Assembly: GCA_903924985.1 (NCBI GenBank)
Contig: CAIYDT010000171.1
Coordinates: 1 to 64,000, forward strand
Direction: 5' to 3'
DNA from: an uncultured Acetobacteraceae bacterium
Lineage (GTDB): Bacteria; Pseudomonadota; Alphaproteobacteria; Acetobacterales; Acetobacteraceae
DNA: 64,000 bases
The position numbers and the translations under genes are program-made. The notes beneath the pieces were generated by a model. It was given only the letters and a program-made list of their open reading frames with translations. It had not been told where the DNA came from and did not search any database. Within the stretch, counting starts at the first letter, position 1. Every line of letters starts with the position of its first letter. Below, one piece after another: positions 18,699 through 49,828 of the stretch.

Positions 18699-20201
18699 TC
18701 ACGTGCTTTGCTGGAATTGAACAAGCAGGCCGATGTTGATGACCTGATCGCTGAAATCGATCGGCAGATACATCAGAACCTGGCCCTTGGTGCCCGTGGT
18801 GGCATAGGCGTTGGCCGCGAATTTCTGCACGTTCTGGACGATGTAGATGCTCGCCAGATATGCATAAATCCCGACCACCGAAGCCAGCATCGCGGCGGGT
18901 GTCGTCGCGGGCGATCCGGGCGGAATGATCGTTCCGTTCGTAACCAGAATTTTGCCCGGCACGATATACTGGCTGGTCATCTGCGCGGAGATGTAACGAG
19001 CCGCATACATCGCCTGGAACAACAGGTTCGTGTTCAGATACGAGTTGTCGGGCTGACCGCTCGCGTTTTGCTGATAGGTCGTGATCGAACGGTCGATCTG
19101 ACACTGGCCGGCGGGTGTGACGGTGAAGGTCGAAAGCCCGTCGAAAAGCAGCGTGTTCCGCTCGCCCGGCGTGTCCTGCGACGCGATCGGCGGCGGCAAC
19201 ATGTTCAGGGGTTGCGTGGACACGCCCTGCGCCGGATTGACCCTCAGACGAATCACATGCGCCGCGCACCAGTCCGAGGCCTCCAGCCATGCCGGTGTCG
19301 GGCTGTCGTAAAACCCGAGGATCGTCGCGTGCTGATCGTTGCGCGTCGTGCCGAACGTGGTCCTCGCGCTGAAGGTGCCGCGATAAGCCGAAAAGACATG
19401 CCCGAACAGTCCTTGTTCCGCCGACCAGCGTCCCGAAGCATCGGACAGGAACGCCTGCAAGGCATTGAGGCTCGCGGAGTCGGTGTAGGGGCAGTCGATA
19501 TAGTCGAACAACTGCACGCCGAGGTTCGACAGCAGCGTGGTCAGCGTCGGGTTGGTCGCCCCACCCGACATGGCGGTGATCGTGTAGCCGACGCCCGGAG
19601 GCACCACCTCGCCATTCTGCGCGCCGCGATAGGCGACGCGGATGTCGATGTCATTCTGCGCGAGGCCTTTGTGCATCGAGGTCAGGTCGACCTGATACGC
19701 ATGGGTGCCGTCCACTGCCGCTGTGCACGAGACGCCGATCGCACCCGAAATTGCGGCTGTGGCATTCGTGGCCATCGTAGTCGCGGAGTCTCCGAGATTG
19801 ACCGCGAACGGAATCGAGACCCCCATGACATACAGCGGAAAGGTGCCCGCGCCCGTCGCCGGGCCGGTGAAGCTGATGTTGCCGGTCGCCGCCGTGCCAG
19901 CGCCGTTATCGGCGAGCGGCCCAAGCCAGACCTCGCCAAACGGGTCCATCGCCCGATAGGCCGCGTACTTCAGCGCCAACATGGAATTGATGCCGCACAG
20001 CCCGTTGACCTGGGCCTGGCTATAGGCCTGGACGGCGATGTTCGGCGTCGCGGTCCCCGCGCTGGTGATCTGCCCAATCAGCAGCGCGCGCTGATTTTGT
20101 GTCGCGGTGTTGGCCTGGCTCGCGTCGAACTCGGCATTGACGCCGGACGGCCGCCAGAACTGCGACGGAAAGTATTTGAAGGCGAGAGCGGAGCCACTCA
20201 T
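18699..20201 (-). CDS. Contractile tail sheath protein (Mu gpL family)
   Basis: 500 residues, the usual sheath length. The N-terminal VNAEFDASQANTATQNQRA segment, the central VQLFDYIDCPYTD and the C-terminal beta-rich part ending FSDQVINIGLLVQFQQ follow the Mu sheath layout. Its presence makes the phage a myovirus. The stop is 10 bases from the tube gene start. Upstream it overlaps the DUF2635 gene by 4 bases. Confidence 0.9.
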   Translation of the reverse strand: MSGSALAFKYFPSQFWRPSGVNAEFDASQANTATQNQRALLIGQITSAGTATPNIAVQAYSQAQVNGLCGINSMLALKYAAYRAMDPFGEVWLGPLADNGAGTAATGNISFTGPATGAGTFPLYVMGVSIPFAVNLGDSATTMATNATAAISGAIGVSCTAAVDGTHAYQVDLTSMHKGLAQNDIDIRVAYRGAQNGEVVPPGVGYTITAMSGGATNPTLTTLLSNLGVQLFDYIDCPYTDSASLNALQAFLSDASGRWSAEQGLFGHVFSAYRGTFSARTTFGTTRNDQHATILGFYDSPTPAWLEASDWCAAHVIRLRVNPAQGVSTQPLNMLPPPIASQDTPGERNTLLFDGLSTFTVTPAGQCQIDRSITTYQQNASGQPDNSYLNTNLLFQAMYAARYISAQMTSQYIVPGKILVTNGTIIPPGSPATTPAAMLASVVGIYAYLASIYIVQNVQKFAANAYATTGTKGQVLMYLPIDFSDQVINIGLLVQFQQST

Positions 20202-28578: not shown

Positions 28579-29943
28579 TCAGCGGGTCGCCAGCGCGACG
28601 AACGGGCTCTTGGTGTTGGTGCCTTTGAACGGGGTCAGCGGCACGGACCACATCGGCTTGCCGTCAACCCGGTAGGTGATGCGGAACACCATCTCGTCAG
28701 TCAGGAACGCGACATGCATGGAAGTCGCCGCCTGAACCCCGTTCTTGTCGACCAGCATGTACTGACTCAGGTCCGCGAGCAGGATGTCGCCCGTAGTTCC
28801 AAGCGTGGCGTTGTATTCCGTCCACACCACCTCCCGGCCATACAGCGTCGAGTAAGGCGTCGCCGACAGCCCGCCGGGCGGCAGGTAGACGACCTGGCCA
28901 CCGGTGCCGACGGACTGGTTCATCGCCATGAGCTGCGGCAGCGTGTCCTGGTTGATGAACCACACCGCGTTCTTCATCGAGCGCGCCCAACAGCGGGACC
29001 ACATGTTGTCGATATTCTCTTTGACGACGGTCTGCGCGGCCTGACCGTTTTGCTTGGGAACCGTGATCAGCGACGGGCTTTTCATGATCCCAAGCGGCAT
29101 GCCGGCGCCCGCCCCCTCGAAGATCGCGTCCTCGGTCATGAACATGACTTCTTCCGAGAAGGCTTGCGAGGCGATCGAGGTCAGCGCGGTCGAATCCTGT
29201 AGCAACTCGTCGGTCGTGTACATCACCGACATCAGCTTTTTCAGGTCGAACTCAATGGTGCGGAACTTCGGCTTGGACGGGGTAACCGACGTGCCCTCGC
29301 CAACCCAGTTGGACGAGACACCACCCCACCGGCTCCCGGTCGCGCGGCTGGTTTCATCCACGCCCGGAATTTTGATCCCGTTCGCGTTGGCGCTGATCGG
29401 CAGCTTGCTCACCCGGCTCAGGATTTCGCCCATGTCGTGCGCGAGCATGAAGATCGCGGCGGCGAAGTCGATCTGCACCAGGAAGCCGCCGCCGGTCGGG
29501 TCCACTTCGCCCGCGCCGGTCGGGGCGCGCACCAGACGCGGGTCGGTCTCGCTGCCCTTGGAGGCGTAATGTTTGAAGATCGATTGGAGTTGCTCGCCAA
29601 ACGACCGGTATTGCGACGCGGCTCGCGGTGTGAAGTCGAGACCCTTCCGGGCGAGGCCGAGGTAATCGTCGAAGCCCTTCAGCTTACCCGGACGCGGGTC
29701 CATCGCGCGGATTTGCGAGATGGTGCGTTGCGAGGGGTTGATCTCCGACACGTCCAGGTCGCCGCCACCGATGGGACGAGCCAGCTTCGCGGCGCGCTGT
29801 TCGGCGCGTTCCAGTTCGCCGATGGTGCGTTCCAGGTCCTCGACCTCGCGTTCCTTGGCGGTGAACGCCGCGGTGCCGGCGAGGGACGGCAGTTGATCCA
29901 CCGCCTCGCCCAGGGCGCGGCGGAGCGACAGAATTGTGCTCAT
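28579..29943 (-). CDS. HK97-family major capsid protein with N-terminal delta domain
   Basis: 454 residues. Residues 1-110 are a helical delta/scaffold-like region (TAKEREVEDLERTIGELERA) removed by the prohead protease in this family. From about 115 the HK97 fold follows: GAGEVDPTGGGFLVQIDF, GSRWGGVSSNWVGEGTSV, FRTIEFDLKKLMSVMYTTDE and EDAIFEGAGAGMPLGIM. The start is the ATG at 29941-29943 with AGGAGACC 7 bases upstream; the open frame begins 7 codons earlier. Confidence 0.92.
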   Translation of the reverse strand: MSTILSLRRALGEAVDQLPSLAGTAAFTAKEREVEDLERTIGELERAEQRAAKLARPIGGGDLDVSEINPSQRTISQIRAMDPRPGKLKGFDDYLGLARKGLDFTPRAASQYRSFGEQLQSIFKHYASKGSETDPRLVRAPTGAGEVDPTGGGFLVQIDFAAAIFMLAHDMGEILSRVSKLPISANANGIKIPGVDETSRATGSRWGGVSSNWVGEGTSVTPSKPKFRTIEFDLKKLMSVMYTTDELLQDSTALTSIASQAFSEEVMFMTEDAIFEGAGAGMPLGIMKSPSLITVPKQNGQAAQTVVKENIDNMWSRCWARSMKNAVWFINQDTLPQLMAMNQSVGTGGQVVYLPPGGLSATPYSTLYGREVVWTEYNATLGTTGDILLADLSQYMLVDKNGVQAATSMHVAFLTDEMVFRITYRVDGKPMWSVPLTPFKGTNTKSPFVALATR

Positions 29944-29967
29944 GGAATTTGGTCTCCTATGCAATGA

Positions 29968-31125
29968 TCAGGCTGGTTTGTGTTTCGCCCGTAACTCGGC
30001 CGCGCGGCGCAACTGAGCCGCTTTTTCCGGGTCAGGATCGGGATTGTCAGGCGGGTCTGAGGCCGGATCGGCGTCCAGCGCGTCCATGACGCCGTCAAGC
30101 AGGCTCAGCGCTTTGGCGTGATGGGTCATGCCTTCGGTCATGAAGGCTTTCGCCGTCGTCAGGGATTTGTGCGCGAGGCGGATCGCATCCTCGTGGGCCA
30201 CTGGCGGGTCATCGTCCCCGGGATCGCCAGCATCCTTTTTGCGCCCAACCAGACGACGCAGTGCCGCCAGCAGCTTTTGGTCCGTGTCGGGCGGGTCCGC
30301 CTTGCCGCCGTGGATCGAGCATTCCGACGGATCGGTCATGCCGCATTCGTCATCCGGGCCACGGCCGCACGTGCCGAGGCTCGCGCCCTCGGCGGGCGGA
30401 TCGTCGTCATCGGCGCCATCGGCTCGGGGTGTCGCGGAAGCATGCCCCGAACGAGCGCGGGGAGATCGTGCCATGTTTGGTTCCTTTGCAGCTTTTCGCA
30501 GGCGTTCCAGTTCGAGGCGCGGCAAAATCACCTTGCCGCCGCTGTCGAGCGTTCGTTCCGCCCAGTCCATCAACGGACGCGTATCGATCCCTTTCCGCCG
30601 CGCCTCGGCCAGTGCGTTGGGGTTCGCGGGTACTGGGCAGACGCTGATTTCCAGGAGGGTTTGTTCGAGGAAGTCGATGCCGTGGCCGCGCTCCGGATCG
30701 TTATCCGCGAAACTGTATTTGGTCGGCATGAAGCCGACGCTCACCGCGCGGATGAATTTTCCCAGCACCAGACGATAGATCGTGTCCGCGAACAGATAGG
30801 TCTCGGGCGGGGCGAAGGTGATGTCACCAGCGAGGCGGGTGCCTTCGACCGCGACGTTGCTGGCGCCCCCGATCGGAGGCGCGGAACTGTCGTGCGCCCA
30901 AAGCGCCACCGGGTTGCGTTCGAAGTCGGAAAGGTCCCAGCCGGCGGCATCGATCGTGTCGCCCATGCGATCGACCGAGTTGTCGGAGAAGATGAACCGG
31001 AGCGTCCGGTCCGCGCCTTCGACAAACACTGGCGGTTCGGTGTTGACACGGAACACGCCGCCGGACGGCTTGCGTTTCGCCTTCAGGTCTTTTCGAAATT
31101 GATCCGCGCTTATCAGCGTGGTCAT
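29968..31125 (-). CDS. HK97-family prohead protease with long C-terminal scaffold-like extension
   Basis: 385 residues. The protease domain covers about 1-190, with TLRFIFSDNSVDRMGDTID, the catalytic His in NPVALWAHDSS and the catalytic Ser in LLEISVCPVPANPNAL. The rest (about 215-385) is acidic, Asp/Pro/Lys-rich and ends in a helical KAAQLRRAAELRAKHKPA tail, longer than typical. The extension may act as a scaffold. The gene lies between terminase and capsid genes in the usual order. Confidence 0.9.
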   Translation of the reverse strand: MTTLISADQFRKDLKAKRKPSGGVFRVNTEPPVFVEGADRTLRFIFSDNSVDRMGDTIDAAGWDLSDFERNPVALWAHDSSAPPIGGASNVAVEGTRLAGDITFAPPETYLFADTIYRLVLGKFIRAVSVGFMPTKYSFADNDPERGHGIDFLEQTLLEISVCPVPANPNALAEARRKGIDTRPLMDWAERTLDSGGKVILPRLELERLRKAAKEPNMARSPRARSGHASATPRADGADDDDPPAEGASLGTCGRGPDDECGMTDPSECSIHGGKADPPDTDQKLLAALRRLVGRKKDAGDPGDDDPPVAHEDAIRLAHKSLTTAKAFMTEGMTHHAKALSLLDGVMDALDADPASDPPDNPDPDPEKAAQLRRAAELRAKHKPA

Positions 31126-31131
31126 GAAGTT

Positions 31132-32856
31132 TCAGCCTCCAACAATGAGCAGGCCTCTCCCGTCGGCGTAGATGCCGGGTGCTTCAGCCATGGACCGGCC
31201 AACCGCCATGATCAGCGCGACGATCGGGTCAATGCGTTCGATGGACCGTTCCTTGTCCGGCTTTTGGTTGCCCGCCGGATCGGTGCGCACGGTGACGTTC
31301 GAGGCACACCAGTCGGAAACCGGATCGCCGCCGTGCTGGAGTTCGCACGCCAACAGCCTGCGGATGAATTCGGCCGAGGCGGGTCCCATGCTCAAAAATC
31401 CCTGGCCGAATTCGATCAATGTCATGCCCTCATCGGCGAGGTTTCTGACGATCTCTCCGGCAAACGTGCGGTCGAACGCCAGTTCCTGGATGTCGTAAAC
31501 AGCCGCGAGCCGCAGGATTTCCGCCTCGACGAACTTGAAATCAGTCGTGTTGCCTTCGGTCGCGATCAGATGTCCTTGATCCCGCCAGACCGTGTACGGC
31601 GCACGGTCGCGGCGCGAGCGTTCCTCAATGTCGTCCTCGGGGCACCAATGCCGCCAGAGGACCTTCCAACGTTCGCCGTCGGATACCGGTGGAAACAGCA
31701 GCGCCAGCGAGGACAGATCATTCACCCTGGCCAGATCGAGCGCCGCGATGCAGCGCCGACCCTTCAACGAGTCCGCATCGATCTCATCCGCGCCCTTGGC
31801 CCAGACCTCCATCGGGATCCAGCGAACGAGTTGCTGCGTCCATTGATTGAGCCGCAGCCGCCTTATCGCGTTCTGGCGCGACGGCATGGACTGCGCGAGC
31901 GCCACCTCGGCCCGGAGGTCCTCGATTTTCAGTACCGAGCCGAGCGAAGGATTCGCCTTGCGCCAGGCCAGTTCGTCCTGCCAGTCGTCCTTTTCGTCGA
32001 TCGTGGCCACGTAGGCGAACCACCGATCAGCGACGATTTCGGGAATGACGCCCTCAAGTACCTTTGTCGAGAAATCCCAGTGCTGGTAGCAAACCGATTG
32101 CCGGTTCACGCCCGCCGTCGTCGTTTCGTACATCAACGGCTGCAACCGCGCACCCATGCCGGTGTCGAGCTTTTCAATCACGCCGGCGTCGGGATGCTCG
32201 TGCAACTCGTCCACCAGCGCGACGAACACGTTCAGCCCGTCCATCCGCGAGGAGTCGGACGATAATGGCCGGAACCAGGACGCCGTCGAAAGCACCGCCA
32301 GGTTGTTGGTCGACTTGTAGATACGCCGCCGCAACGCCGGCGATCCGGCCCGCATCCGCTCCGCTTCCGAGAAAACGATGCGCGCCTGTTCCTTCGTCGT
32401 CGCGGCGGAATAAATCTCCGCGCCGGGCTCGTTTTCGTCGATCAGGGCTTTCAGACCGATCCCTGCCTCGATCGTCGATTTGCCGTTCTTCCGCGCCGTC
32501 GAGACGAAGGCGGTGCGGAAGCGCCGGATTTCGATGCCCACACTATCGAGCCTGATCTTCCAACCGAAGATCGAGCCGACGACAAATTCTTCCCAGTCCA
32601 GCAGTTCGAACGGCTGGCCCGCAAGCTGGCCCTTGGAATGCCGCAGCACCGCCGGGAAGAAATCCAATGCACGCTGTGCGGCCGCGCGGTCCCAGCGGAG
32701 GCCTCGGTCCGGACCCTCCACCAGGTCGCGCAGATGCCGCTCGCAGGCGAGTCGGACCAACCGCCCGGTGACGAGCCTGTTTTCCACGACAGCGGTTGCA
32801 TAGGCTTCGACCGGGTCGGATGGTGGCTTCCGAGTGCCCTGCTTACGTCCGGCCAC
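31132..32856 (-). CDS. Phage terminase large subunit
   Basis: 574 residues. ATPase part: RTAFVSTARKNGKSTIEAGI (Walker A-like) and LNVFVALVDELHEHPDA (Walker B). Nuclease part: CIAALDLARVNDLSSLALLF with the metal-binding Asp, ELAFDRTFAGEIVRNLADEG and PDKERSIERIDPIVALIMA. This motor packages DNA through the portal and cuts it. The start overlaps the small subunit's end by 14 bases. The portal gene is not next to it but about 10 kb away. Confidence 0.93.
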   Translation of the reverse strand: MAGRKQGTRKPPSDPVEAYATAVVENRLVTGRLVRLACERHLRDLVEGPDRGLRWDRAAAQRALDFFPAVLRHSKGQLAGQPFELLDWEEFVVGSIFGWKIRLDSVGIEIRRFRTAFVSTARKNGKSTIEAGIGLKALIDENEPGAEIYSAATTKEQARIVFSEAERMRAGSPALRRRIYKSTNNLAVLSTASWFRPLSSDSSRMDGLNVFVALVDELHEHPDAGVIEKLDTGMGARLQPLMYETTTAGVNRQSVCYQHWDFSTKVLEGVIPEIVADRWFAYVATIDEKDDWQDELAWRKANPSLGSVLKIEDLRAEVALAQSMPSRQNAIRRLRLNQWTQQLVRWIPMEVWAKGADEIDADSLKGRRCIAALDLARVNDLSSLALLFPPVSDGERWKVLWRHWCPEDDIEERSRRDRAPYTVWRDQGHLIATEGNTTDFKFVEAEILRLAAVYDIQELAFDRTFAGEIVRNLADEGMTLIEFGQGFLSMGPASAEFIRRLLACELQHGGDPVSDWCASNVTVRTDPAGNQKPDKERSIERIDPIVALIMAVGRSMAEAPGIYADGRGLLIVGG

Positions 32857-33313
32857 TCAGGAAATCTTCGGCGGGATCGTAATTGCTCGCGGCGTCCCCG
32901 GCCCTGATCCGCGACCGCGACGAACCCGACAGGCCGAGTTGTTCCGACATCTGCCGCACCTGATCCAGTGCCTTGTTCGACGCCGCGAGATAGGGCGAAT
33001 ACATCGGATAGCCGTTCGGCGACTTGACGATGAGGCCCGTCACCTTGAGCTGCCGCTCGCATTCCAGCCAGCGCGACCAGGCCATGCAATAACCGGCGAC
33101 TACCGCGCGATCGAGGTTCGTGATGAGTCCGACATCCGCAAGCAACGGCGTCACGCGCCGCCATTCGGCCAGAGCGTGCTCATCCCGTTCCAGCAGGTCC
33201 GGCGGCTCCGGGATGGCAACCTCCGGCTTTGCCTCCTGCTTGTTGAGCGGGCGCCGTCCCGGGTTGCCGGTCACCAGTTTCAGGACCGTCGCCTTCGGCT
33301 TAGCGCCCTTCAT
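32843..33313 (-). CDS. Phage terminase small subunit, P27 family
   Basis: 156 residues beginning MKGAKPKATVLKLVTGNPG, the P27-family start, then EWRRVTPLLADVGLITNLDRA. It recognises packaging sites and regulates the large subunit. It overlaps the ParB-like gene's end by 14 bases and the large subunit's start by 14 bases, so all three are probably coupled. Confidence 0.9.
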   Translation of the reverse strand: MKGAKPKATVLKLVTGNPGRRPLNKQEAKPEVAIPEPPDLLERDEHALAEWRRVTPLLADVGLITNLDRAVVAGYCMAWSRWLECERQLKVTGLIVKSPNGYPMYSPYLAASNKALDQVRQMSEQLGLSGSSRSRIRAGDAASNYDPAEDFLSGRT

Positions 33314-38465: not shown

Positions 38466-40172
38466 ATGTCCTTAGTCAAAACGAAAATCCCCGACGACAT
38501 CCGCCCGATCCTCGCGCGATCGACGATCGCCGGAAATGTTCTCACCCTCCCCGGGCAACTCGACCGCGAAACCTACCTCCGCGTGGACAAGGTGCTGAAA
38601 GCCACGCGCGGCAAATGGGACCGCAAGGCCAAGGGTCATGTGTTCCCCTTCGACCCGCGTGAGCTGATCGGCGAAGCCGTCGAGACCGGCGAGGCCGTCG
38701 ATGCCAAAAAGACCCTCCAGTTCTTCGAGACGCCCGACGATCTCGCCCGCCGCATGGTCGAACTGGCCCGGCTGAAACCCGGCGATACGGCCCTGGAACC
38801 GTCCGCCGGTCTCGGCCGAATCGTTCGCCACCTGATCGCCGCTGGCGCCGAGGTTCGTGCCATTGAAATCGACGGCACCAACGCCGCCGCACTGCGCGCA
38901 CTCGACGGCAATCCTTTGGTCCAGCACATGGACTTCGAGGACTGGCACGCGGCCAGTCCCTCGGCCCCCGGCTTGTTCCATGCCGTGGTGATGAACCCGC
39001 CTTTCTCAGACAATCAGGACATCCGACACATCCGCGCCGCCTGGGAGCATGTCCTGCCCGGCGGCCGGCTGGTCGCCATCTGCTCCGAAGGCCCGTTCTT
39101 CCGCCAGGACATGGCGGCACGGATGTTCCGCGACTGGCTGGACAGCATCGGCGCCGAGACCGAAAAACTTCCGCCCGAGACCTTCCGCGAGAGCGGTAGC
39201 GGCGTGAACACAAGGCTGATCACCGCGACCAACGCCGCGCCCGCCGTTCCCTTCTACCTCCCCGGCGGCACGGCTGAGCCGATCGTCCCGCTCGCCTCCG
39301 AAGCGGCTGTCCAGGACATTCCGGTCCAGCAGATCGCCGCCGATCCCGGCCAACCTCGAAAAACGTTCGATCACCGGGAGCTTGGCGAACTCGCCGCCTC
39401 CATCCGGGCAAATGGGCTGTTGCAGCCGATCACCGTCCGCGTCGGCGGGGAGAAGGGCTTTCTCATTGTCGCCGGCGAGCGCCGCTACCGCGCACACCGG
39501 ATCAACGGCGCGGCGACCATCCGTGCGATCGTGATCGAGGCCCCGGACGAAGCGGACATCCGCATCAAGCAGATCATCGAGAACGATCAGCGGGCCGACG
39601 TGCCCCCGCTGGAACAGGCGAAGTCCTATCAGGCGTTGATGGACCAGATGGGTTGGACGCCCGCGGAACTCGGCCAGCGGATCGGCAAGGCCGCGCACCG
39701 CATCACCGAGCGGACCGACCTCCTGCGCCTCCAGCCGGAGTACCAAGGGCTTCTGGCGGGCGGCAACCTCAAACCCTCCGAGGCGACCGAACTCGCCAGG
39801 CTCGCCCCCAGGGGTCAGATGGTTCTGTTCAAGGCGATCCAGACCGGCGCTTGCAAAACCTACGCCGACCTCCGCGCCACCGCGAACGCCCTGGTCCATG
39901 CCGAGGCTCAGGTGTCGTTCGCCCTTGAGACCCAACCTGGCCCGACGGAGGAAGACCAACGTCTCGCCACCGGCTTCGAGGCACAGGTCGAACGCATCGC
40001 CCTGATGCTGCGGACGGGCATCCGCGACAACCAGGTGGTCGCCGTGCGCAAGGTCAGTCCGCACCGGGCGGGGGTTCTCGCCGACCAATTCGGCGCCATG
40101 CAGAAGGATTTGCGGCGGATCGAGGTGGCGTTGCGCACGGCGGCGATCCAGGAGAGCTTCCTGGCCGGCTGA
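38466..40172 (+). CDS. Methyltransferase-ParB fusion protein
   Basis: 568 residues. N-terminal class I methyltransferase: TALEPSAGLGRIV (motif I, about 109-121) and VVMNPPFSDN (motif IV, NPPF at 177-180), typical of N6-adenine DNA enzymes. From about 283 a ParB-like domain follows (IRANGLLQPITVRV, VAGERRYRAHR at 335-345, then helix-turn-helix-like WTPAELGQRIGKAA near 395). It ends in a helical region. ParB-methyltransferase fusions occur on mobile elements; they may methylate and organise element DNA. Start supported by AGGAG at 38455. Confidence 0.85.
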   Translation: MSLVKTKIPDDIRPILARSTIAGNVLTLPGQLDRETYLRVDKVLKATRGKWDRKAKGHVFPFDPRELIGEAVETGEAVDAKKTLQFFETPDDLARRMVELARLKPGDTALEPSAGLGRIVRHLIAAGAEVRAIEIDGTNAAALRALDGNPLVQHMDFEDWHAASPSAPGLFHAVVMNPPFSDNQDIRHIRAAWEHVLPGGRLVAICSEGPFFRQDMAARMFRDWLDSIGAETEKLPPETFRESGSGVNTRLITATNAAPAVPFYLPGGTAEPIVPLASEAAVQDIPVQQIAADPGQPRKTFDHRELGELAASIRANGLLQPITVRVGGEKGFLIVAGERRYRAHRINGAATIRAIVIEAPDEADIRIKQIIENDQRADVPPLEQAKSYQALMDQMGWTPAELGQRIGKAAHRITERTDLLRLQPEYQGLLAGGNLKPSEATELARLAPRGQMVLFKAIQTGACKTYADLRATANALVHAEAQVSFALETQPGPTEEDQRLATGFEAQVERIALMLRTGIRDNQVVAVRKVSPHRAGVLADQFGAMQKDLRRIEVALRTAAIQESFLAG

Positions 40173-40487
40173 CGGCCGCCGCTTCGGCAGTCGGTTTATG
40201 GTGCTGATTCAACGTCGAAAAGCGGGTCAGAATCGGGGCCAAAACGGCCCCTTTGGCGTGGTCTCTCGGGAACATAGTGAGCAAAATCAATGCAAAAGGC
40301 GGACTGACCGGCTGCTGCTACCCCCCCCACCCAATTCCGCGCCTGATCGCGTTTCACCCATGCACGGTCCCGACAGGCGCGAGTGAGCGGATCGAAACCC
40401 CCATCCCCTAGAGGCAAGGGTGCCGGCCGAGGCGGGCCACGGCCGCAGTAAGTCGCCGGGGTTCAAACTATCCTGGAGTAACCAACG
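40173..40487. other. 315-base convergent intergenic stretch
   Basis: Lies between the ends of two convergent genes. It contains a hairpin at 40235-40254 and a run of eight C at 40321-40328. No ORF with a credible start and no RNA gene was recognised. Confidence 0.5.
40235..40254 (+). terminator. Rho-independent-type terminator of the plus-strand block
   Basis: GGGGCC (40235-40240), loop AAAAC, GGCCCC (40246-40251), then TTT. A perfect 6-base GC stem with a short T run, 63 bases after the methyltransferase-ParB stop. The short T run makes it moderate in strength. Confidence 0.55.
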
Positions 40488-42569
40488 TTAGGGCGCCGCC
40501 ACACCGTCCGTTCGGCGGCGGCGTGCACCCGTGCTCTTACCGGTCCTACTTGCGCGTGAGGCACTTGCGTGCTCACCGAAGCCTGCCGGTTCCTCGGCAG
40601 CGGCGACGAGGACCCCCTCAAGATATTTGCCATAGGTGGTCCTGAGATGCTCGAGCGCGCCCTCGCGCGTAATGCGCAAGTCCAGGGAATCCTGAAAGAA
40701 CTTCAGACGTGCGCGGTTCTCCTTGAACAGAGAGGCCCAGGTTCGTACCCAAATGACAATATTGCCGCTCTCTACGACCACTCCGTCAGGCGCGTGCTTA
40801 ATCTGCCGGAGGCCGCAGTAGTCATCGTCGATCTTGCGCGAGAGAGCCCAGAAGACCCAACGAGTCGTAGCCTTGTCGAACCGCGAATCTGCGGCCACGG
40901 CCTGCGCATAATTCTCGACTTGCGTCAGTTCCTTCTGACGGATCGGGACTTTCGGCGCCTTCAATTCGACAATAAGATGTTCGATGTCTGCCGACCCGTG
41001 TGGACGGCGCTGTTTGCCGAACATCAGGTCAACGATGCCCCTCTTCTTCTCGGGGTGGAGGACCGGATCGCTTCCCAGCACCTGCACGCCCCTGGCCTTG
41101 GCGTGCTCGGCAAGGCACCGCGTCAGGCCTTCGTCGTCAGCCATGAGTTGGAACTCATCGCCGAAGAGCCAAGTGTTTTCGGCAACCAGGCGATGGAGCT
41201 GTGTCCGCTCGCGCAGCGTCTTTCGGTAATCATCCTCGAAGACCAACGCCTCTAAGCCCGTCAGCACCTTCAATCGGTTTGAAATTACTCGGGCGCCCCC
41301 AATGAGCGCGGACAAAGAAGTCTCGCGAAGGAGCGCGACGAGGTCGGCCAATTCCTTCTTCTGGAGATTCAACACCTCCTGCAGGACAGTTTGGATTTCC
41401 TCGTCGCCCTGCTCGACCGCAGCCCGAAGGGTCCGGAGTTGGAGGCGGCGGGCCTTCTGAGATGTTTTGTCGAAGTCCTCAATATGACGGGCGGCCGTGA
41501 CCGCAACGATGTCGAAGACATCTCGCTTCGCCTGTTCCAAAGGGTTAGATGCTGAATCCTTGTACGGATAGACATCCTCCCGTTTCCATGCTTCCACGAC
41601 GTTCTGCGAATCGGCAGCTGCCCGTCGGCGAAGGTGGTCGCGAATGGCTTGACGTGCCTCCACCAGGACTTCTTGCAAGGGGACGTTGAGGCCGCCCAGA
41701 CCTAATTCGTTCTTGTCGTGAAGCGCCTGAATGAAAGACGACCGGAGATACGCGCAATAGCCGCGGTCGGCTGGTGGGAGGCGTTCCTCAAGGGTCAGCA
41801 GGGGAAATCCCCGTTCGCCGCACAGGTAGAGGCACCGCTCTCCAGCTCGCTTCCATTCGATCACTTCCAGCGTGACCGAGTGAGTGGTCCCTTCTTCTTC
41901 GACGGGTTTGAGCGAATACGCCTTCCGGTGAGCGATGCCCTCCTCCGGATCAAGCAGAAGTCCGTTCACCGACACCCGAACCTCAGGGTAGCTGAGGAGG
42001 TATGGGGCTAGAATTTCTGTAAGGCTCTGACGGCCATCCTCTCCTGAAAGACTGCGGAAGTCCCGAAGAAGTTCGGTGATTACCAGTTCCACACCCGTGC
42101 CCGTGGCCGTGTCCACGCAATCGGTCGCCTCGGTGATGCGGCCCTTGTCGAGGCTGGTCCCCAATACGGTTATCTTGAAGACCTTCAGGGCCTTGCCGTC
42201 TCGGAACGTGACCGACCAGTCCGCCACCCTTCCGAGAGCAAATGCCTTAAATCGGCCCCGGCCTTCGCGCCCATGAAGGAACCGCCCGCGGCCCTTCGTT
42301 TTCGCCGCGAGGCTTTTCCAGCTTCCACCGAGTCCCGCGAACAAGCCTGGAGCCTCGTCGCGGTTCATACCCGTCCCGTCGTCGCGAACGACGATGCGTT
42401 CAAGTCCGCCAAGAGGCCCGTCCTGGAACTCGATTTCCACGCGCATCGCATCCGCGTCGACGGCATTCCAGACACACTCCGCCAACGCCATTAGCGGGGG
42501 CGCGCTCGCCTGACGAGCGAGGTGGTCCGACTTCGCGGTAACCTGAAAAAATGTGTCGCTGCCGTCCAC
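40488..42569 (-). CDS. GHKL-type ATPase fused to Shedu-like PD-(D/E)XK nuclease
   Basis: 693 residues from a GTG at 42567-42569 with GGGGGAG 6 bases upstream; the frame reaches 42641 without better support. N-terminal GHKL fold: ALAECVWNAVDADA (N box, Asn near 35), VVRDDGTGM (G1, near 63) and GRGRFLHGREGRGRF (G2). Helices with a coiled coil run from about 365 to 450. The C-terminus has LHRLVAENTWLFGDEFQL (about 458-475), RGIVDLMFG (about 511) and LIVELKAPK (about 533), a PD-(D/E)XK site arranged as in Shedu/DUF4263 nucleases. Predicted: ATP-dependent clamp sensing DNA and cutting it. It lies behind the portal gene on the same strand, a cargo position; an anti-phage role is inferred. Confidence 0.85.
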   Translation of the reverse strand: MDGSDTFFQVTAKSDHLARQASAPPLMALAECVWNAVDADAMRVEIEFQDGPLGGLERIVVRDDGTGMNRDEAPGLFAGLGGSWKSLAAKTKGRGRFLHGREGRGRFKAFALGRVADWSVTFRDGKALKVFKITVLGTSLDKGRITEATDCVDTATGTGVELVITELLRDFRSLSGEDGRQSLTEILAPYLLSYPEVRVSVNGLLLDPEEGIAHRKAYSLKPVEEEGTTHSVTLEVIEWKRAGERCLYLCGERGFPLLTLEERLPPADRGYCAYLRSSFIQALHDKNELGLGGLNVPLQEVLVEARQAIRDHLRRRAAADSQNVVEAWKREDVYPYKDSASNPLEQAKRDVFDIVAVTAARHIEDFDKTSQKARRLQLRTLRAAVEQGDEEIQTVLQEVLNLQKKELADLVALLRETSLSALIGGARVISNRLKVLTGLEALVFEDDYRKTLRERTQLHRLVAENTWLFGDEFQLMADDEGLTRCLAEHAKARGVQVLGSDPVLHPEKKRGIVDLMFGKQRRPHGSADIEHLIVELKAPKVPIRQKELTQVENYAQAVAADSRFDKATTRWVFWALSRKIDDDYCGLRQIKHAPDGVVVESGNIVIWVRTWASLFKENRARLKFFQDSLDLRITREGALEHLRTTYGKYLEGVLVAAAEEPAGFGEHASASRASRTGKSTGARRRRTDGVAAP

Positions 42570-42662
42570 GGCGATCTCCCCCGCTGGGCAGGCATCGTAC
42601 CACCGAGAGGCGCATCGCTCCAGGGCGCGCAGTCCAGCCACATACCCTTGGCGGCGTTCGGG

Positions 42663-43997
42663 CTATGCGCCCGGCGCCGGATCGTCCGCCGGATTGCGGT
42701 TCGGATCGCCATTACCGCCCTCGCCAGGAACCCCGGTCTGGTTGCTCCCCTGATCGCCAACGCCTCCCGCCGCCGCCGGCACCCACCCAAGCGGCGCCAT
42801 GTTCACCGCCTGCTGCACCGTCTCGCCATGTTCGACATTTGGCATGCCCTCGCCACGCCGCGCCTCATTCACCGCCATCCAAGGACCACCGACCGCCTGG
42901 CGATAGGCCGTGAACCGCGACAGCAGATCGGCTTTGACGAACGCGCCATAGTCCCAATCGAGAAACACATCGTCGCCGTCCAGGTCGAAGAACTTCTCCC
43001 CGCGCGCCTTCCACCGCTCGCAATACCCGCTGATTGGCCCGTTCAGATATTCCTGACCCATCTGCACCATCGCCGGCCCCTCGGTCTCGCCCTCGATCGC
43101 CAGCTTATACGGCGGCACGTCGAACGCGCGCGCGATATCCCGCAGTTGAAAATTCCGGCTCTCGATGAACTGGCTGTCCACCATGGTCAGCCCGAGCGGC
43201 TGCCATTTCAGCCCCTGCTCCAGGATCGCCGTCGCGCCGGAATTACGCGGGCCGGACTGTAACCGTTGCCACTCGTCGCGGAGTTGCTCGCGGACCTCCT
43301 TGCTCGCGAACTTCTGATCCGTCGAAAGCACGCCGCCGGTGCGGGCGCCCTGGCCCACGAACCGCGCCTGATGTTCCTCCAGCCCCATCGAGAGGCCAAT
43401 CGACTGCCGCACCATGCTCAGCCGCGACGAACCGAGGAGAGAATTCCACATTGGCAGCCAGCGCAGATGGAACATGTCGCGGGATGGGATCAGCAGCGGC
43501 TGCTCGCGCAGCATCGCCATCTCATGCAGCCCGTTCCGCGTTACCGCGTAGAAGTATTCCCCGGACGGGGCCTCGAACAATCCGACCCGGTCAGGGTGGA
43601 TCGGCACCATATACAGTGGCACGCCGCGCTGGTTCCGCACCGCGACGGCGTAGCCGTTGCCGCGCAACACCAGCGAAGCCTGCAACATCTCCTTGAACTC
43701 GAACCCGTCCTGCCAGTTGTTTGGGTTTCGCAACAGGCGATTGAGGAAATGGTCTTTCAGCCCCTCTTTGCCGCCATTCGGTAGGCGGCGGAAAACGCCG
43801 AGCGGAATTTTCGCCACATCCCCGGCGAGGATCGAGACGCACGCCATCACCGCGACATGGCGCATCGCCGTCGTCGTGCTGACCGGCATGCCCGAGGCCG
43901 ACTGGCCCGTATCACCCCACTCGCCCCAGAGGCGGCCATCGTCGGTTTCGCCGGAGCGGCGGCGCGCGAAATCGGCGACCCGCGACCAGAAGCCCAT
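42663..43997 (-). CDS. HK97-family phage portal protein
   Basis: 444 residues. GMPVSTTTAMRHVAVMACVS, LAGDVAKIPLGVFRR, LLRNPNNWQDGFEFKEMLQA and GNGYAVAVRNQRGVP are the HK97 portal hallmarks; a Pro/Gly/Asn-rich disordered tail ends the protein. It forms the dodecameric DNA gate. Usually it lies between terminase and protease; here it is separated from the large terminase by the GHKL gene and the entire plus-strand block. Confidence 0.92.
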   Translation of the reverse strand: MGFWSRVADFARRRSGETDDGRLWGEWGDTGQSASGMPVSTTTAMRHVAVMACVSILAGDVAKIPLGVFRRLPNGGKEGLKDHFLNRLLRNPNNWQDGFEFKEMLQASLVLRGNGYAVAVRNQRGVPLYMVPIHPDRVGLFEAPSGEYFYAVTRNGLHEMAMLREQPLLIPSRDMFHLRWLPMWNSLLGSSRLSMVRQSIGLSMGLEEHQARFVGQGARTGGVLSTDQKFASKEVREQLRDEWQRLQSGPRNSGATAILEQGLKWQPLGLTMVDSQFIESRNFQLRDIARAFDVPPYKLAIEGETEGPAMVQMGQEYLNGPISGYCERWKARGEKFFDLDGDDVFLDWDYGAFVKADLLSRFTAYRQAVGGPWMAVNEARRGEGMPNVEHGETVQQAVNMAPLGWVPAAAGGVGDQGSNQTGVPGEGGNGDPNRNPADDPAPGA

Positions 43998-44025: not shown

Positions 44026-44370
44026 TCATCGGCGCGCGCCGCGCATGCCGCGGTGGCCTTCGGCGACCTGGCGCGCCGTGTGCGCGTCGTGGCACGGCTT
44101 GCACCCGGACCGAAGATTGCTCCAAACCAGCCGCAGGTCGGGCCGTTCGGAAATCGGCACGATATGATCGACCGTGTTCGCCGCGGTCAGCCGCCCCAGG
44201 CTCTGGCACCACCAGCACAGCGGATCGGCCTTGAGCTTGGCGGCGCGCAGCCTTCGCCACGCACTGTCGTATCCGCGCGACGCCGCCGAGCCACGCCAGC
44301 GATCATGCGCCTGCCGCTTGGCGGCGGCGCCACCATGGGCGGGCTGATGGACGGGCGGTCGGAACGGCAT
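44026..44370 (-). CDS. HNH endonuclease, phage packaging-associated
   Basis: 114 residues from the ATG at 44368-44370. SRGYDSAWRRLRAAKLKADP, LCWWCQSLG (CxxC), NTVDHIVPI (the HNH histidine pair) and NLRSGCKPCHDAHT (second CxxC) give a complete zinc-bound HNH site. Such enzymes lie beside portal/terminase genes in HK97-like phages and cooperate in DNA packaging. The upstream open frame to 44727 is shadow of the DUF6456-like gene. Confidence 0.87.
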   Translation of the reverse strand: MPFRPPVHQPAHGGAAAKRQAHDRWRGSAASRGYDSAWRRLRAAKLKADPLCWWCQSLGRLTAANTVDHIVPISERPDLRLVWSNLRSGCKPCHDAHTARQVAEGHRGMRGARR

Positions 44371-44504
44371 TGTCGGCGGTGTCCACTTGCCGCCCTGGCT
44401 GGACCTGATCGGGGCGAGGCGACCGACCCTCAAACGACAACGGCGCCAGTCCCTTGCAGGGCGGCGCCGCGCTCCGGTCGCAGTTATGCAACTTAGAGCC
44501 TCTA

Positions 44505-45119
44505 CTACTTGACAGCCGCCCCGACGGTCAAGCGCGAATTCTCCCGTGGGGTCAATCCGTAGTGGCACGCCAGCCGGTCCAGCCCAACCAGTAGGATCGC
44601 GCGGCCGGTGTGGCGGCGGGTCCGTCGGGCAGCGTCGAGCGACTCCAGCGTTGCCAGACCAAGCACGACAAGCCGTACCACGTCGGCGACCTCGGCCTCG
44701 TTCTGTGGCCCACGAATGGCCAACCATGCCCGTTGCACTCGGCCCTGCGCGTCGATCATCGTTTGCGTCGGGCCGTCACCCGAAGTGCCGCCGGAGATGC
44801 CGAGACGCTCATTCTCGCCTCGCACGCCATCGGCCAGGGCGGTATCGAGACGAAACTGCTCGGCCGCCAGGAACTGTACCCGGCCCGGCCCGTCTCGCCG
44901 CGGTTCCAAGATGGCCATGAGCGGGTCCCTCCGCCGTGCCACGCGCACCGTAACGCGCTTATCCGGCCGATCGATGTCTGGCACGTCCGCCAGTTCGATC
45001 CCGGCGGCGGCGCCGTCCCAGGCGGCCCGCAGGCGGCCGTCGCGATCCCTCATCATGGCCGGTCCATAGTCGGCGGCAGGTGCAACCTCGAAAATGCGGC
45101 GCTTCTTGTGCTTTGCCAT
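44505..45119 (-). CDS. DUF6456-like phage protein
   Basis: 204 residues. The basic N-terminus MAKHKKRRIFEVAPAADYGP and the C-terminal EVADVVRLVVLGLATLESLD...LVGLDRLACHYG pattern resemble the DUF6456 C-terminal helical domain of alphaproteobacteria. No catalytic motif. The position between the HNH/portal module and the VapE gene suggests a regulatory or DNA-binding role. Its promoter region contains the left arm of a large inverted repeat (45239-45263). Confidence 0.55.
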   Translation of the reverse strand: MAKHKKRRIFEVAPAADYGPAMMRDRDGRLRAAWDGAAAGIELADVPDIDRPDKRVTVRVARRRDPLMAILEPRRDGPGRVQFLAAEQFRLDTALADGVRGENERLGISGGTSGDGPTQTMIDAQGRVQRAWLAIRGPQNEAEVADVVRLVVLGLATLESLDAARRTRRHTGRAILLVGLDRLACHYGLTPRENSRLTVGAAVK

Positions 45120-45238: not shown

Positions 45239-45365
45239 ATGACGCATGACGCACATGACGCATTTCGTGTACAAGCGCCCTACGCACCAAGTACGTCTCT
45301 GCTCGTAACATTCTCAACTTGTCAGCCCCTCGTAAGGCAAGTGCGTCATATGCGTCATGCGTCAT
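45239..45365. repeat. Large inverted repeat built from TGACGCA iterons
   Basis: The arms 45239-45263 and 45341-45365 are 25 bases long, and 23 of 25 bases pair. Each contains three copies of TGACGCA (left) or TGCGTCA (right). The 77-base centre has no gene. The right arm overlaps the stop of the VapE-type gene; the left arm lies 120 bases before the next gene's start. Iterons beside a primase/helicase gene suggest a replication origin or a regulator-binding array. Confidence 0.6.
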
Positions 45366-47358
45366 GGCGCCGAACCCATGGGCGACCGTTCATCGTCCGC
45401 TCGCCGCGCATCCATCCCAGCTGCTCCAGCACGGCCGAAATCCGCCGCTGATCCGCGGTCCCGATCTTGGGCGTCTCGATGAACAGGGCTTGGCGAGCCA
45501 CGGTCAGGATCGTCAGCGGTGGGCGCTGCGGGTCACGATTCCAGTTCTCCAGCCATTCCGAAATCGCCTGCTCCCACGCATCACCTTCGTAACGGGCATC
45601 CTGTTGCGGTTGGATGTGTTCGACCTCGAAAGCCCGATCTGGCCACCACGGGCGCCGTTGTCGGTAGAGATGCACAGCCTCGGCAAAAAGCTGATCCCGA
45701 TCTCGCGTCAGCGCGTTGGTGTCGATCGTTCCCACCTTGACCGGCCAAAAGCGCCGGCCGCCGGTTTCGTCGCGCAAGTAAGCATGCTTGTTCGTGGTGC
45801 CAATGAACACGCATTGCCGAGGCTCGATTACTTCCTTGCGTCCATAGCTCGGCCGATAGCGTTCTTCGGCGCGGGTTATGAATGCCTTGAGTGCCGCGGC
45901 CTCCGCCTTGTCCAGTGCCGACAGTTCAGCCACCTCAATCAGCCACTTGCCGTTGAGGTGCTGTGACACGTCTTTGCCGACTCGAATGTCGGGCAAATTA
46001 TCCGAAAACCACAGACCGCCAAGGATTCTGCATGCGGTTGACTTTAGAGCGCCCTGCGGGCCTTCCAGCACCAGCATATAGTCGCCCTTGCAACCCGGCT
46101 TGAATATCCGTGCTACCATCGCAATGAGGAACAACGGCCCGATGCCCTGCGCGTAGGCGTCCTGTTTCGCTCCCAGATAGATATGCAACCACGTGGCGAG
46201 ACGCGGTTTTCTGTCCCAACTCAGTGCGGTCAGATAGTCGCGGACTGGATGAAACGCGCACTCGCGGGAACGCAGATCGACAGCCTGATGCACCGTGTCC
46301 TTCGAGACGTTCGTCAGGCCAGCTCGCTGCAACCATTCCTGTACTGCGGTCACGTCTTCGTCTCGGACCGGCCGCGGCGTGAAGGTCTCGCCAGAGAGCA
46401 ACCGCGTCAGAATCGGTACGCGCTGCATGTCGTCATACGCGAACATTCCGCCCAATGCTGGAGCTTCCCGCAATGCCACCAGCACGTTGACGAGGTTGGA
46501 TCGCAGGTTGCCTTTATCGTTGCATTGACAATGTGCGAGCCACGCGCAATCGGCAGCCTTTTCCCAAATACGCCGCAGTTCCCGGCCGTCGTTTGCGTCA
46601 CCCTTATCGCGGCACCAGTCCGCCGTTTCGGGATCGACACGCAAGGCGTCGACCATCTGGTCGTACGTCCGGCCGCCCGATCGCAGGGAAATCCCTTTGC
46701 GGAACGCAACGGAGCTACGCGACGAGTCTGCGCCGCGTGACGCTTTTGGTGTGAGGCTTTTCCCAACGAAGGCAGGGCCGGCTTCGCGGATCAGCCAGGT
46801 CAGCACCTCGGACGTGACGGCGCGCAGTTCGTTCGGACTGCCAGGCAAGGGTTGACCGGTCAGCGCGAAATACCTGCCGTCGAGATACAACTCGATGCTC
46901 GGCGGGTGGTCTCCCTTGCCCCGCGCCCATTTCCGCCCAGAACCTTCCCCGGGCTTCTTACCCATGATGGCGCGCAATGACGCCAGCTCCGCCGCGGAGA
47001 AGATGAAGAACACCTTTGCACCGGTGCCGGATGGCGAAACTTCCGCGTAGGAGCCGATCCTGGCCACAACCTCGACAGCCCAGGGTTCCAGGGTTCCGTC
47101 CGCGGCACGGCAGGTGTCGAGATCGATTCCCCCGATCGCCAGGTCGTCGCCCAGAAGCCCAAGCTGGAGGCCAATGCCGCCACCGCTGCCGTTGACCAGA
47201 CGGGCCACGGCGGCTTCGGCCTCGGTGCGGGTCCCCCAGGTGGTAGGATCGTCCGCCTTGGCCCTGCGGTCATTGCGCGGCGAGTAGGGGACTTTGGTTT
47301 GCTTGCCGTTGCGTAGCTCGTTCCGCCAGGTCACCCAGCGAACACGCTCTGCCAGCAT
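45355..47358 (-). CDS. VapE-family primase/helicase-like replication protein
   Basis: 667 residues from the ATG at 47356-47358. The N-terminal prim-pol-like region contains GIGLQLGLLGDDLAIGGIDL and YAEVSPSGTGAKVFF. A linker follows, then the VapE P-loop ATPase from about residue 355, with MLVLEGPQGALKSTACRILG (Walker A), GKWLIEVAELSALDKAE (Walker B-like) and PRQCVFIGTTN. This is the usual replication initiator/helicase of alphaproteobacterial prophages. The frame is open to 47484 but with an ATT there; other GTG/TTG starts upstream are possible. Ribosome sites are weak. Confidence 0.85.
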   Translation of the reverse strand: MLAERVRWVTWRNELRNGKQTKVPYSPRNDRRAKADDPTTWGTRTEAEAAVARLVNGSGGGIGLQLGLLGDDLAIGGIDLDTCRAADGTLEPWAVEVVARIGSYAEVSPSGTGAKVFFIFSAAELASLRAIMGKKPGEGSGRKWARGKGDHPPSIELYLDGRYFALTGQPLPGSPNELRAVTSEVLTWLIREAGPAFVGKSLTPKASRGADSSRSSVAFRKGISLRSGGRTYDQMVDALRVDPETADWCRDKGDANDGRELRRIWEKAADCAWLAHCQCNDKGNLRSNLVNVLVALREAPALGGMFAYDDMQRVPILTRLLSGETFTPRPVRDEDVTAVQEWLQRAGLTNVSKDTVHQAVDLRSRECAFHPVRDYLTALSWDRKPRLATWLHIYLGAKQDAYAQGIGPLFLIAMVARIFKPGCKGDYMLVLEGPQGALKSTACRILGGLWFSDNLPDIRVGKDVSQHLNGKWLIEVAELSALDKAEAAALKAFITRAEERYRPSYGRKEVIEPRQCVFIGTTNKHAYLRDETGGRRFWPVKVGTIDTNALTRDRDQLFAEAVHLYRQRRPWWPDRAFEVEHIQPQQDARYEGDAWEQAISEWLENWNRDPQRPPLTILTVARQALFIETPKIGTADQRRISAVLEQLGWMRGERTMNGRPWVRRHDA

Positions 47359-47683
47359 GGACAGGGCCAAGCCCTGACCGGCATCGTCTTTCTCGGTGGG
47401 CCGCTGCTCAACCAAGACCGCAGGCCAACCGCAGCCACCCGGCGAACGCGAGAAGCAGCAGCAGTTCGGCCAGTGAGGGATCAATGCGCCTCACGGCCCC
47501 ACCTTCCTCGGCGCGCGGCGTGCTTCCGGTGCGACTCGGAGTTCCCGCCGGCACCACGATGGGCGGCGCAGGTTGACGCAGTGGGCCGACGACATCCGGC
47601 CTGCACACGCGTTCGGCCGAAACGTCAGTCGTCCCCGATCCCGGTCTAAGGCGGTCTCAATATCAGCCATGAGCCCAGCGCCT
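47359..47683. other. 325-base stretch between the excisionase-like and VapE genes
   Basis: A minus-strand frame at 47408-47608 starts with GTG and ends in a hydrophobic stretch (AELLLLLAFAGWLRLACGLG), but I see no ribosome site or homology, and it overlaps possible upstream starts of the VapE gene. No RNA gene or repeat was recognised. Confidence 0.35.
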
Positions 47684-48625: not shown

Positions 48626-49828
48626 ATGACCCGAACCTTTAGCAAGCTCACCCGCACAAAGACACGCGCCCTACAACCAGGCGAAAGCCTGAGTGAACAG
48701 GGAATTACGTTCGAACGACTGGGCAACGGCGACGGCCTGTTCTCGGTCAACGTCATGGTGGATGGGCAGCGTATCCATCGAAATCTCGGCCGTGAATCGG
48801 ATGGCGTCACCAGAACCACGGCGGAAGAATTCATCTCCAAGGTCCGGCACGAAGCGCGGGAAGGTCGATTGAACCTGCCGAAGCGCAGGAAGGTGCCGTT
48901 GACGCTCGCTGCGGCGGCACCGCTTTATCTCGACCGCCTTCGCGAGGAAGGGGGAAGGGAAATTGACCGCAAGCGCCAACGCCTTGAGCAGTGTCTCATC
49001 CCATTCCTGGGGGAACTTCAGATCGGCCAGATTACCGGTTCCGATATCGAACGTTACAAGAAGCATCGCCTCAGTCAGCCTGTCCAGACCCGCAAGAAAC
49101 CTGTGGCGGGGCAACCACCGCAAACGAACAAACCGGCCACCGTCAACCGGGAGTTGGCGACTCTGTCGCACCTGCTCAACAAGGCGGTCGAATGGGACTG
49201 GACCGAGCGGCAGCCGGCAAAAATACGGAAGCTGAAAGAGGACAACGGTCGTATCGTCTACCTGTCCCCGGTCCAGGCGACGGCCCTGTTGGAGGGCGCC
49301 AGGTCGGACCAAAATCGGCAGATTTATCCATTCATACTGATTGGACTGCGGACCGGGATGCGCAAGTCGGAAATCCTTGCCATTCGCCGTGAGCACGTGA
49401 ACCTTGACGCGAGGTCAATTTATATCCCCGCGGCGAAAGCGGGTGCCCGCACGCAGCCGATTTCGGCTGATCTGGCTTCGTTCCTGACCGAATACATCGA
49501 CACTTTGCCGAAGGGCACGCCCTGGCTGTTTCCGTCGGTGGGAGCCGAGCAGGGGCATACGGTCGATGTCCGCAAGGCGTTTGTGCGCGCGGTCACCGCC
49601 GCGGGTCTCGACCCAAAACAGGTCGTCCGCCACACCCTCCGTCATACCGCCATCACGCACCTGGTTCAGGCGGGGGTCGATCTGCCAACCGTCAAGCGCA
49701 TCAGCGGCCATAAGACCATGGCGATGGTCGAGCGGTACGCCCACCAGTCCGGCTCCCATATCGCGGAAGCGATGGATAAGCTCGACGATCGCTATCGACC
49801 GAAAAAGAGATCGGCACGCGCTTCCTGA
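48626..49828 (+). CDS. int: Tyrosine-family site-specific integrase
   Basis: 400 residues. Arm-binding and core-binding region 1-205; catalytic domain with Arg in GLRTGMRKSEI (about 246), HTLRHTAITHL (His 336, Arg 339), SGHKTMAMVERYAH (His 362) and the nucleophile Tyr (371). It integrates and excises the element. Its stop lies 98 bases from the 3' end of tRNA-Phe, the usual target arrangement. Confidence 0.93.
   Translation: MTRTFSKLTRTKTRALQPGESLSEQGITFERLGNGDGLFSVNVMVDGQRIHRNLGRESDGVTRTTAEEFISKVRHEAREGRLNLPKRRKVPLTLAAAAPLYLDRLREEGGREIDRKRQRLEQCLIPFLGELQIGQITGSDIERYKKHRLSQPVQTRKKPVAGQPPQTNKPATVNRELATLSHLLNKAVEWDWTERQPAKIRKLKEDNGRIVYLSPVQATALLEGARSDQNRQIYPFILIGLRTGMRKSEILAIRREHVNLDARSIYIPAAKAGARTQPISADLASFLTEYIDTLPKGTPWLFPSVGAEQGHTVDVRKAFVRAVTAAGLDPKQVVRHTLRHTAITHLVQAGVDLPTVKRISGHKTMAMVERYAHQSGSHIAEAMDKLDDRYRPKKRSARAS

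Follow-up and report, generated by a model that had tools for sequence, protein, structure and literature searches.

The window, that is, the whole stretch of 64,000 nucleotides analysed here from an uncultured Acetobacteraceae bacterium, contains a prophage of about 43 kb. The element is a real prophage of a temperate contractile-tailed phage, and an intact gene for a GHKL ATPase joined to a nuclease lies within it. The main features of the element, read leftwards from the integrase, are the following:

48626..49828, plus strand: tyrosine integrase gene, at the prophage end near tRNA-Phe (PF00589, 8.6e-28; tRNA found)
45355..47484, minus strand: VapE-type primase/helicase gene (PF05272, 1.9e-76)
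44026..44727, minus strand: HNH endonuclease gene adjoining the displaced portal (PF01844; start position uncertain)
42663..43997, minus strand: HK97-type portal gene, not in its customary position after the large terminase (PF04860, 1.4e-79; synteny)
40173..42662, no strand: variable slot from the displaced portal to the convergent ParB-methyltransferase gene (comparison with related viral contigs)
40488..42569, minus strand: GHKL ATPase - PD-(D/E)XK nuclease gene, 693 codons, GTG start
38466..40172, plus strand: methyltransferase-like and ParB gene, convergent with the slot (PF02195, 4e-23; PF17762, 2e-12; MTS only 0.022)
32843..33313, minus strand: terminase small subunit gene (TerS; phrog_83, 8.3e-48)
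31132..32856, minus strand: terminase large subunit gene (TerL; phrog_9, 8.6e-158)
29968..31125, minus strand: head maturation protease gene, directly behind the large terminase (phrog_80, 1.1e-23)
28579..29964, minus strand: major head protein gene (phrog_10, 5.1e-38)
18699..20201, minus strand: tail sheath gene, indicating a contractile tail (phrog_165, 1.3e-127)
6351..7790, minus strand: Mu-gp48-like tail gene, towards the far prophage end (PF10076, 4.7e-30)

Beyond the major head protein, the order continues with head-tail adaptor, tail sheath, DNA-circularisation and Mu-gp48-like genes, the last near 6 kb. The terminase, protease, head and tail genes further left rule out the alternative that the element is a small satellite carrying a portal alone. 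No attachment sites were found within the window, where the tRNA-Phe end and the integrase flanks are unrepeated beyond words of 12-13 bases. Two conserved phage genes precede TerS (33300-35283, minus strand), one ParB-like and one resembling an amidoligase family (phrog_7405 and phrog_7858). Within the block of tail genes, and in the opposite orientation to them, lies a gene for a caspase-domain protein (9219-11012, plus strand; PF00656, 1.4e-28), possibly a second cargo gene. At the left window edge, beyond the tail genes, a macro-domain gene adjoins an HsdR-like type I restriction gene (817-2067 and 1917-5066, plus strand).

The portal gene of the window is located about 10 kb from the terminase and protease genes. 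The usual order can be observed in related contigs, as TerL-portal-protease in L134 and L142 (the latter the same contig as L198) and as TerL-portal in L138. In the window, L196, L197 and L199, the protease gene comes immediately after TerL; in the window, L128, L129 and L146, the portal adjoins an HNH gene and faces a ParB-methyltransferase gene. Pieces of a portal also face the ParB-methyltransferase gene at the contig end of L197, where no HNH gene was seen. Among 395 genomes of the order, only the source genome's own ParB-methyltransferase was returned at E<=1e-60.

From its first GTG, the GHKL-nuclease frame is open over 40488..42641 on the minus strand (717 aa). The GTG at 42569, which gives 693 aa, has GGGGGAG six bases upstream and lies near the position where the N-termini of homologues begin, and is thus the better start. 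The 693-residue protein of the preliminary description is borne out by both signs. Its place directly behind the portal gene is also confirmed: the portal gene carries the strong PF04860 match listed above, and 93 nt separate its end from the GHKL gene, which has the same orientation. With a G+C content of about 0.60, the gene is below its surroundings (0.64-0.69); this says little, since the VapE gene is equally low. No expression signals were found in 39800-42800, where promoter-like sites numbered 0 (0.4 in shuffles) and terminator-like sites 2 (2.5 in shuffles).

The 693-residue protein can be divided as follows:

42060..42569, minus strand: GHKL ATP-binding domain, residues 1-170, with E31, N35, D63, G67 and R106 (PF13589 and MutL/MORC/Hsp90 matches; limits approximate)
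41685..42059, minus strand: S5-fold-like transducer region, residues 171-295 (AlphaFold2 model and Foldseek matches to MutL/Hsp90; boundaries predicted and approximate)
41220..41684, minus strand: helical linker, residues 296-450 (secondary structure of the AlphaFold2 model)
40605..41219, minus strand: PD-(D/E)XK nuclease domain, residues 451-655, with E454, D514, E535-x-K537 and Q550 (alignment, model, Foldseek, profile-profile comparison)

The combination of a GHKL ATPase and a C-terminal nuclease in one chain, noticed in the preliminary description, is far beyond chance. Pfam HATPase_c_3 (PF13589) matches the protein at 2.1e-12 (47.7 bits, cut-off 25), and the N-terminus contains the GHKL motifs E..N, DxGxG and GxxGxGR. 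The C-terminus contains the E-D-ExK of the restriction-enzyme (RE) fold (E454, D514, E535-K537) within GIVDLMFGKQ...EHLIVELKAPK, followed by the Q; its nuclease-type Pfam match, HSDR_N_2, is below the cut-off (0.0083 for the whole protein, 0.0023 for the nuclease domain alone). These residues were followed in alignment A5, composed of the window protein and 87 relatives (88 rows, 20-65% identity to the window protein), all taken from loci where the frame is uninterrupted. E31, N35, D63, G67, R106, D514, E535, K537 and Q550 are identical in 88/88 rows and E454 in 87/88. Broken copies, such as those of L034 and L174, are absent from A5 because the rows were picked for a clean open frame. The key residues, whose loss in most homologues was given in the preliminary description as a result that would refute its reading, are kept in all aligned sequences. 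Asn35 had been named correctly as a GHKL key residue; the earlier "Lys536-region" points to the right part of the nuclease, in which the conserved lysine itself is K537.

The AlphaFold2 model based on A5 has a mean pLDDT of 88.0 and a pTM of 0.64 for the whole protein, and the nuclease domain modelled alone (residues 425-655, 62 sequences) reaches a pLDDT of 92.6. In Foldseek, the top matches of the whole-protein model are TRAP1/Hsp90, MutL and MORC, with similarity to MutL, Hsp90 and MORC extending beyond the GHKL part. Profile searches of PDB sequences likewise return MutL, MORC and Hsp90. The nuclease domain gives weak matches, none at E<=0.001, in which restriction-enzyme folds come first (EndoMS at 1.5e-3, MspJI, McrC), followed further down by Cap4 and, lower, HamA. 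The solved Shedu structures 8ti8, 8ti9 and 8tia are absent among the 50 of 424 Foldseek matches listed for this domain.

The domain had been called Shedu-like, which holds only remotely. The SduA_C/DUF4263 family model (PF14082) has no match at E<=1 in the window protein or in the nine relatives scanned. Profile-profile comparison gives a different picture: with hhalign, the nuclease-domain alignment A6 (62 sequences) matches a set of nine SduA_C-positive proteins of the genus Vibrio at a probability of 84.2% (E 7.3e-6, 83 columns), and in this match the NTWxFG, D, ExK and Q positions line up. The nine proteins were taken from 12 found (L207, L209 and L212 omitted), with L210 and L211 being near-copies. 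The control comparison of A6 with two HsdR N-termini, a weak control of two sequences, gave 0.5%. Judged by these alignments, the window nuclease and SduA_C probably share a remote common ancestry, as distinct from membership by the Pfam family model.

Relatives of the protein were found on several kinds of replicon. They are present in 49 of 72,556 plasmid records, 33 of them with a query coverage of at least 80%, and in 2 of 50,697 phage records, the Pasteurella phages Pmp3 and Pmp14, at 33% identity. Among 507 candidate stretches of genome contigs, 460 contain relatives, and the best 80 of these 460, which were kept, come by title from many phyla. A viral scan with the alignment as query gave 31 loci; the same scan with the window protein alone gave none. 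In the host family of the source, 5 of 200 genomes contain a strong match, the source genome included and one of the five C-terminal only; 90 matches were counted there in all, and most of the others are weak and cover about 50 N-terminal residues, the kind expected from MutL.

In a quick tree built from A5, the 24 virus rows and 64 cell rows call for 12 changes of label, at least 9 of them forced by supported branches. The labels are also clustered, since shuffling them gives a mean of 21.2 changes against the 12 observed. The tree indicates that phages would have acquired such GHKL-nuclease genes more than once.

The patchy spread is relevant to the view that the protein is a nuclease for DNA repair or quality control, in which a MutL ATPase is fused to a nuclease of the EndoMS type. 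The resemblance of the N-terminus to MutL and the EndoMS match, the best of the nuclease domain, would agree with such a role. A strong match in only 5 of 200 host-family genomes (the source and the C-terminal copy counted) does not, and VcSduA, an architectural twin, is described as anti-phage (PMC12137116). We regard a repair function as improbable.

The genes around the relatives were examined in 73 upstream neighbours from 80 genome loci, as raw counts with 25 of 101 families listed; the neighbour genes were called by a simple script that left out L020, L067, L108, L117 and L125. Among the families listed are phage integrase in 4/73, HSDR_N in 3/73, GmrSD_N in 2/73 and DndB in 2/73, and the first 25 families of a second list include MADS mad2 in 3/73 and type I restriction enzyme in 2/73. 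Thirteen named records were inspected for gene context, two of them without annotation. The relative adjoins a type ISP enzyme in one, and lies close to genes for a helicase and for abortive infection in another, near Drt2, a cytosine methyltransferase and a LlaMI nuclease in a third, and near a DNA methyltransferase in a fourth; in further records it is found among integrase, toxin-antitoxin or conjugation genes. The neighbours of phage-borne members were also varied (Psu-like 5/130, anti-repressors 3-4/130, tail and tape-measure families 2-3/130), and in Pasteurella phages Pmp3 and Pmp14 the gene lies among tail genes. No constant partner gene was seen among the neighbours examined. Beside the Salmonella plasmid copy, a 1258-aa protein (L005, 3020-6796) has a C-terminus that appears nuclease-like by eye.

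Occurrence on plasmids, genomes and phages, in differing places and with no constant partner among these neighbours, suggests an exchangeable mobile cargo gene rather than a packaging part. HNH proteins can assist terminases, and the gene lies on the portal strand, 93 nt behind it, in an HNH-portal cluster, so that a role in phage DNA processing or packaging, together with the portal and the HNH gene, had to be weighed. We consider this the least probable of the explanations, and a most unlikely one. L128, L129 and L146 share the HNH-portal cluster without a GHKL-nuclease gene in the stretch examined. Among 111 loci with homologues, 80 genomic and 31 viral, only L100 and L103 contain a window-like portal; the test used the window portal as query and misses distant portals, such as the one annotated in Pasteurella phage Pmp14 at a distance of about 7 kb. 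A portal partnership was rejected in view of this rarity and of the HNH-portal phages lacking the gene. The diverse neighbours and the tail-gene location in the Pasteurella phages are at odds with a fixed role in packaging, and homologues restricted to packaging components, which the preliminary description named as a result that would refute its reading, are not what was found.

The region between the portal and the ParB-methyltransferase gene is a variable slot. Nine instances were compared, some bounded by one flank where the contig ends early; both flanks, with differing contents between them, are seen in the window, L128, L129, L146 and L197. The window slot contains the GHKL-nuclease gene, and that of L197 contains Helicase (PADLOC, 3.4e-125) and DUF2290 (3.1e-15). 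L199, a near-copy labelled by its likeness to L197, ends within the helicase. L131 contains PDC-M32A (4.6e-130) 66 nt behind the portal, with one flank seen. PADLOC found nothing in the 1192-aa Hint-domain frame of L128 or in the 612-aa intein/glycosyltransferase-like frame of L127, the latter with one flank seen. L129 and L146 contain smaller frames only (one frame each scanned with Pfam, neither matched), and in L196, whose portal flank is missing, Pfam identifies a pentapeptide protein and part of a transposase. Defence-labelled genes are thus present in four of the nine instances, two of which are the near-copies L197 and L199; no recognised defence gene was found in the other five, two of them scanned with PADLOC.

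Helicase+DUF2290 is described as inhibiting phage T7 and as occurring in prophage hotspots (PMC9122126). The slot resembles the antiviral hotspots of P2, P4 and other prophages described there, in which a variable locus receives unrelated defence genes, Helicase+DUF2290 included; unlike in the P2 and P4 hotspots of that report, the flanks here are a portal and a ParB-methyltransferase gene (PMC9122126). The contents are suggestive of a prophage defence hotspot and are not proof of one. More specifically, the slot could be a dedicated defence-cargo hotspot of a contractile-tailed phage lineage, presumably of Alphaproteobacteria, in which cargo behind the HNH-portal genes may be co-expressed with them and may guard the host both as prophage and during the phage's own lytic growth; we hold this possibility to be rather doubtful. 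The slot marks a place in a phage lineage to look for further defence genes.

The adjoining ParB-methyltransferase gene raises the question of a restriction-modification pair, in which the GHKL protein would be a restriction enzyme of the BbrUII/HgiDII kind and the neighbour would protect self DNA. The GHKL N-terminus is common to those enzymes, whose NCBIfam model (NF050001) matches the N-terminal part of the window protein at 5.8e-17; the score of 61.5 bits falls short of the 550-bit cut-off. The relatives mentioned above near a type ISP enzyme, a cytosine methyltransferase with LlaMI or a DNA methyltransferase are in line with such a pair. The ParB-methyltransferase gene, however, is kept in phages whose slot contains other genes (L128, L146, L197 and L199), which means that it does not serve the GHKL gene as a dedicated partner; only a weak methyltransferase match (0.022) was obtained for it, and N6_Mtase appears in 2/73 upstream neighbours among the 25 of 101 families listed. 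A restriction-modification role is unlikely, if somewhat less so than a repair or packaging role.

The combination of domains had been thought to be uncharacterised, a claim that falls in view of two earlier reports. The paraMORC3 proteins of Iyer, Abhiman and Aravind (2008) are described as combining GHKL and S5 domains with an RE-fold nuclease at the C-terminus that carries E-D-ExK; some of them are stand-alone genes in proteobacteria and bacteroidetes (PMC2292703). Likened by that description, the window protein, with its predicted S5-like part, appears to have the same layout, and no difference is seen at this level. A 2025 study describes VcSduA of West African-South American V. cholerae as a GHKL ATPase and PD-(D/E)xK nuclease in one chain, which alone protects against Drexlerviridae in E. 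coli and against vibriophage X29; E27A (ATPase) or K557A (nuclease) abolished the anti-phage activity, and the authors put the protein in Shedu type I-D, after Gu et al. 2025 (PMC12137116). The window protein is a further member of this known kind of single-chain GHKL-PD-(D/E)XK protein. It also matches phrog_6203, a family without assigned function, at 1.5e-70, the best stretch covering residues 295-656 of the 717-aa frame, with a second matching stretch.

By described architecture, VcSduA and the window protein are alike: each is encoded by a single gene on a mobile carrier, a mobile island for VcSduA (PMC12137116) and a prophage for the window copy, and joins a GHKL ATPase at its N-terminus to a PD-(D/E)XK nuclease at its C-terminus. 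The spacing from E27 to K557 in VcSduA is 530, against 506 in the window protein; it exceeds the range across A5 (499-528, median 505). VcSduA is assigned DUF4263 by its authors (PMC12137116), and the Pfam DUF4263 model does not match the window protein. Among 148 genomes of Vibrio, the genus of L050, no VcSduA-like SduA_C protein of about 680 aa was found, the longest frame among the 12 SduA_C matches being 542 aa. A search of these genomes with A5 at 1e-15 gave 13 matches, of which eight extend over most of the alignment; seven of the eight were aligned, and the exact E27/K557 positions are in none of them.

We consider it likely that the window protein is a stand-alone, single-gene anti-phage nuclease, acting in superinfection exclusion and carried as exchangeable cargo of a temperate contractile-tailed phage. 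This defence reading draws on the VcSduA layout, the active-site residues kept in A5, the MutL/MORC/Hsp90-like N-terminus, the SduA_C profile match, the mobile spread, the label changes on the tree, the integrase and defence genes among the upstream neighbours and the slot contents. Weighing against it are the missing Pfam SduA_C match, the lack of a Foldseek match at E<=0.001 for the nuclease domain, a PADLOC result confined to a partial type II restriction match (1.8e-6), the wider E27-K557 spacing of VcSduA, neighbour counts as small as 2-4 of 73 per family, and the five slots with no recognised defence gene. A single-gene defence cargo carried by a prophage had been proposed from the outset; by analogy with VcSduA, and with the mobile distribution, it is supported as the most likely role, and a defence activity in the source host may be inferred.

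When ATP binds, GHKL/S5 proteins form dimers that clamp DNA or protein. The window protein would likewise act as a GHKL dimer, whose N-terminal GHKL/S5 clamps would close around invading DNA on ATP binding. Closure might then position or activate the C-terminal PD-(D/E)XK nuclease, which would cut the DNA of the invading phage, and some trigger would presumably separate foreign from self. The locus shows a GHKL-nuclease built like VcSduA as part of a prophage, and the divergent relatives of this protein provide a set for asking how GHKL ATPases switch nucleases.

The nearest relative is that of the viral contig L096, at 65% identity. In Siccirubricoccus, L034 and L174, apparently one genome under two handles, keep only about residues 331-654. 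The GHKL gene is thus reduced there (7956-9056 in L034), and the upstream gene of L096 (5294-6250) has no match in either. The reduced Siccirubricoccus copy is probably a deletion in a related prophage.
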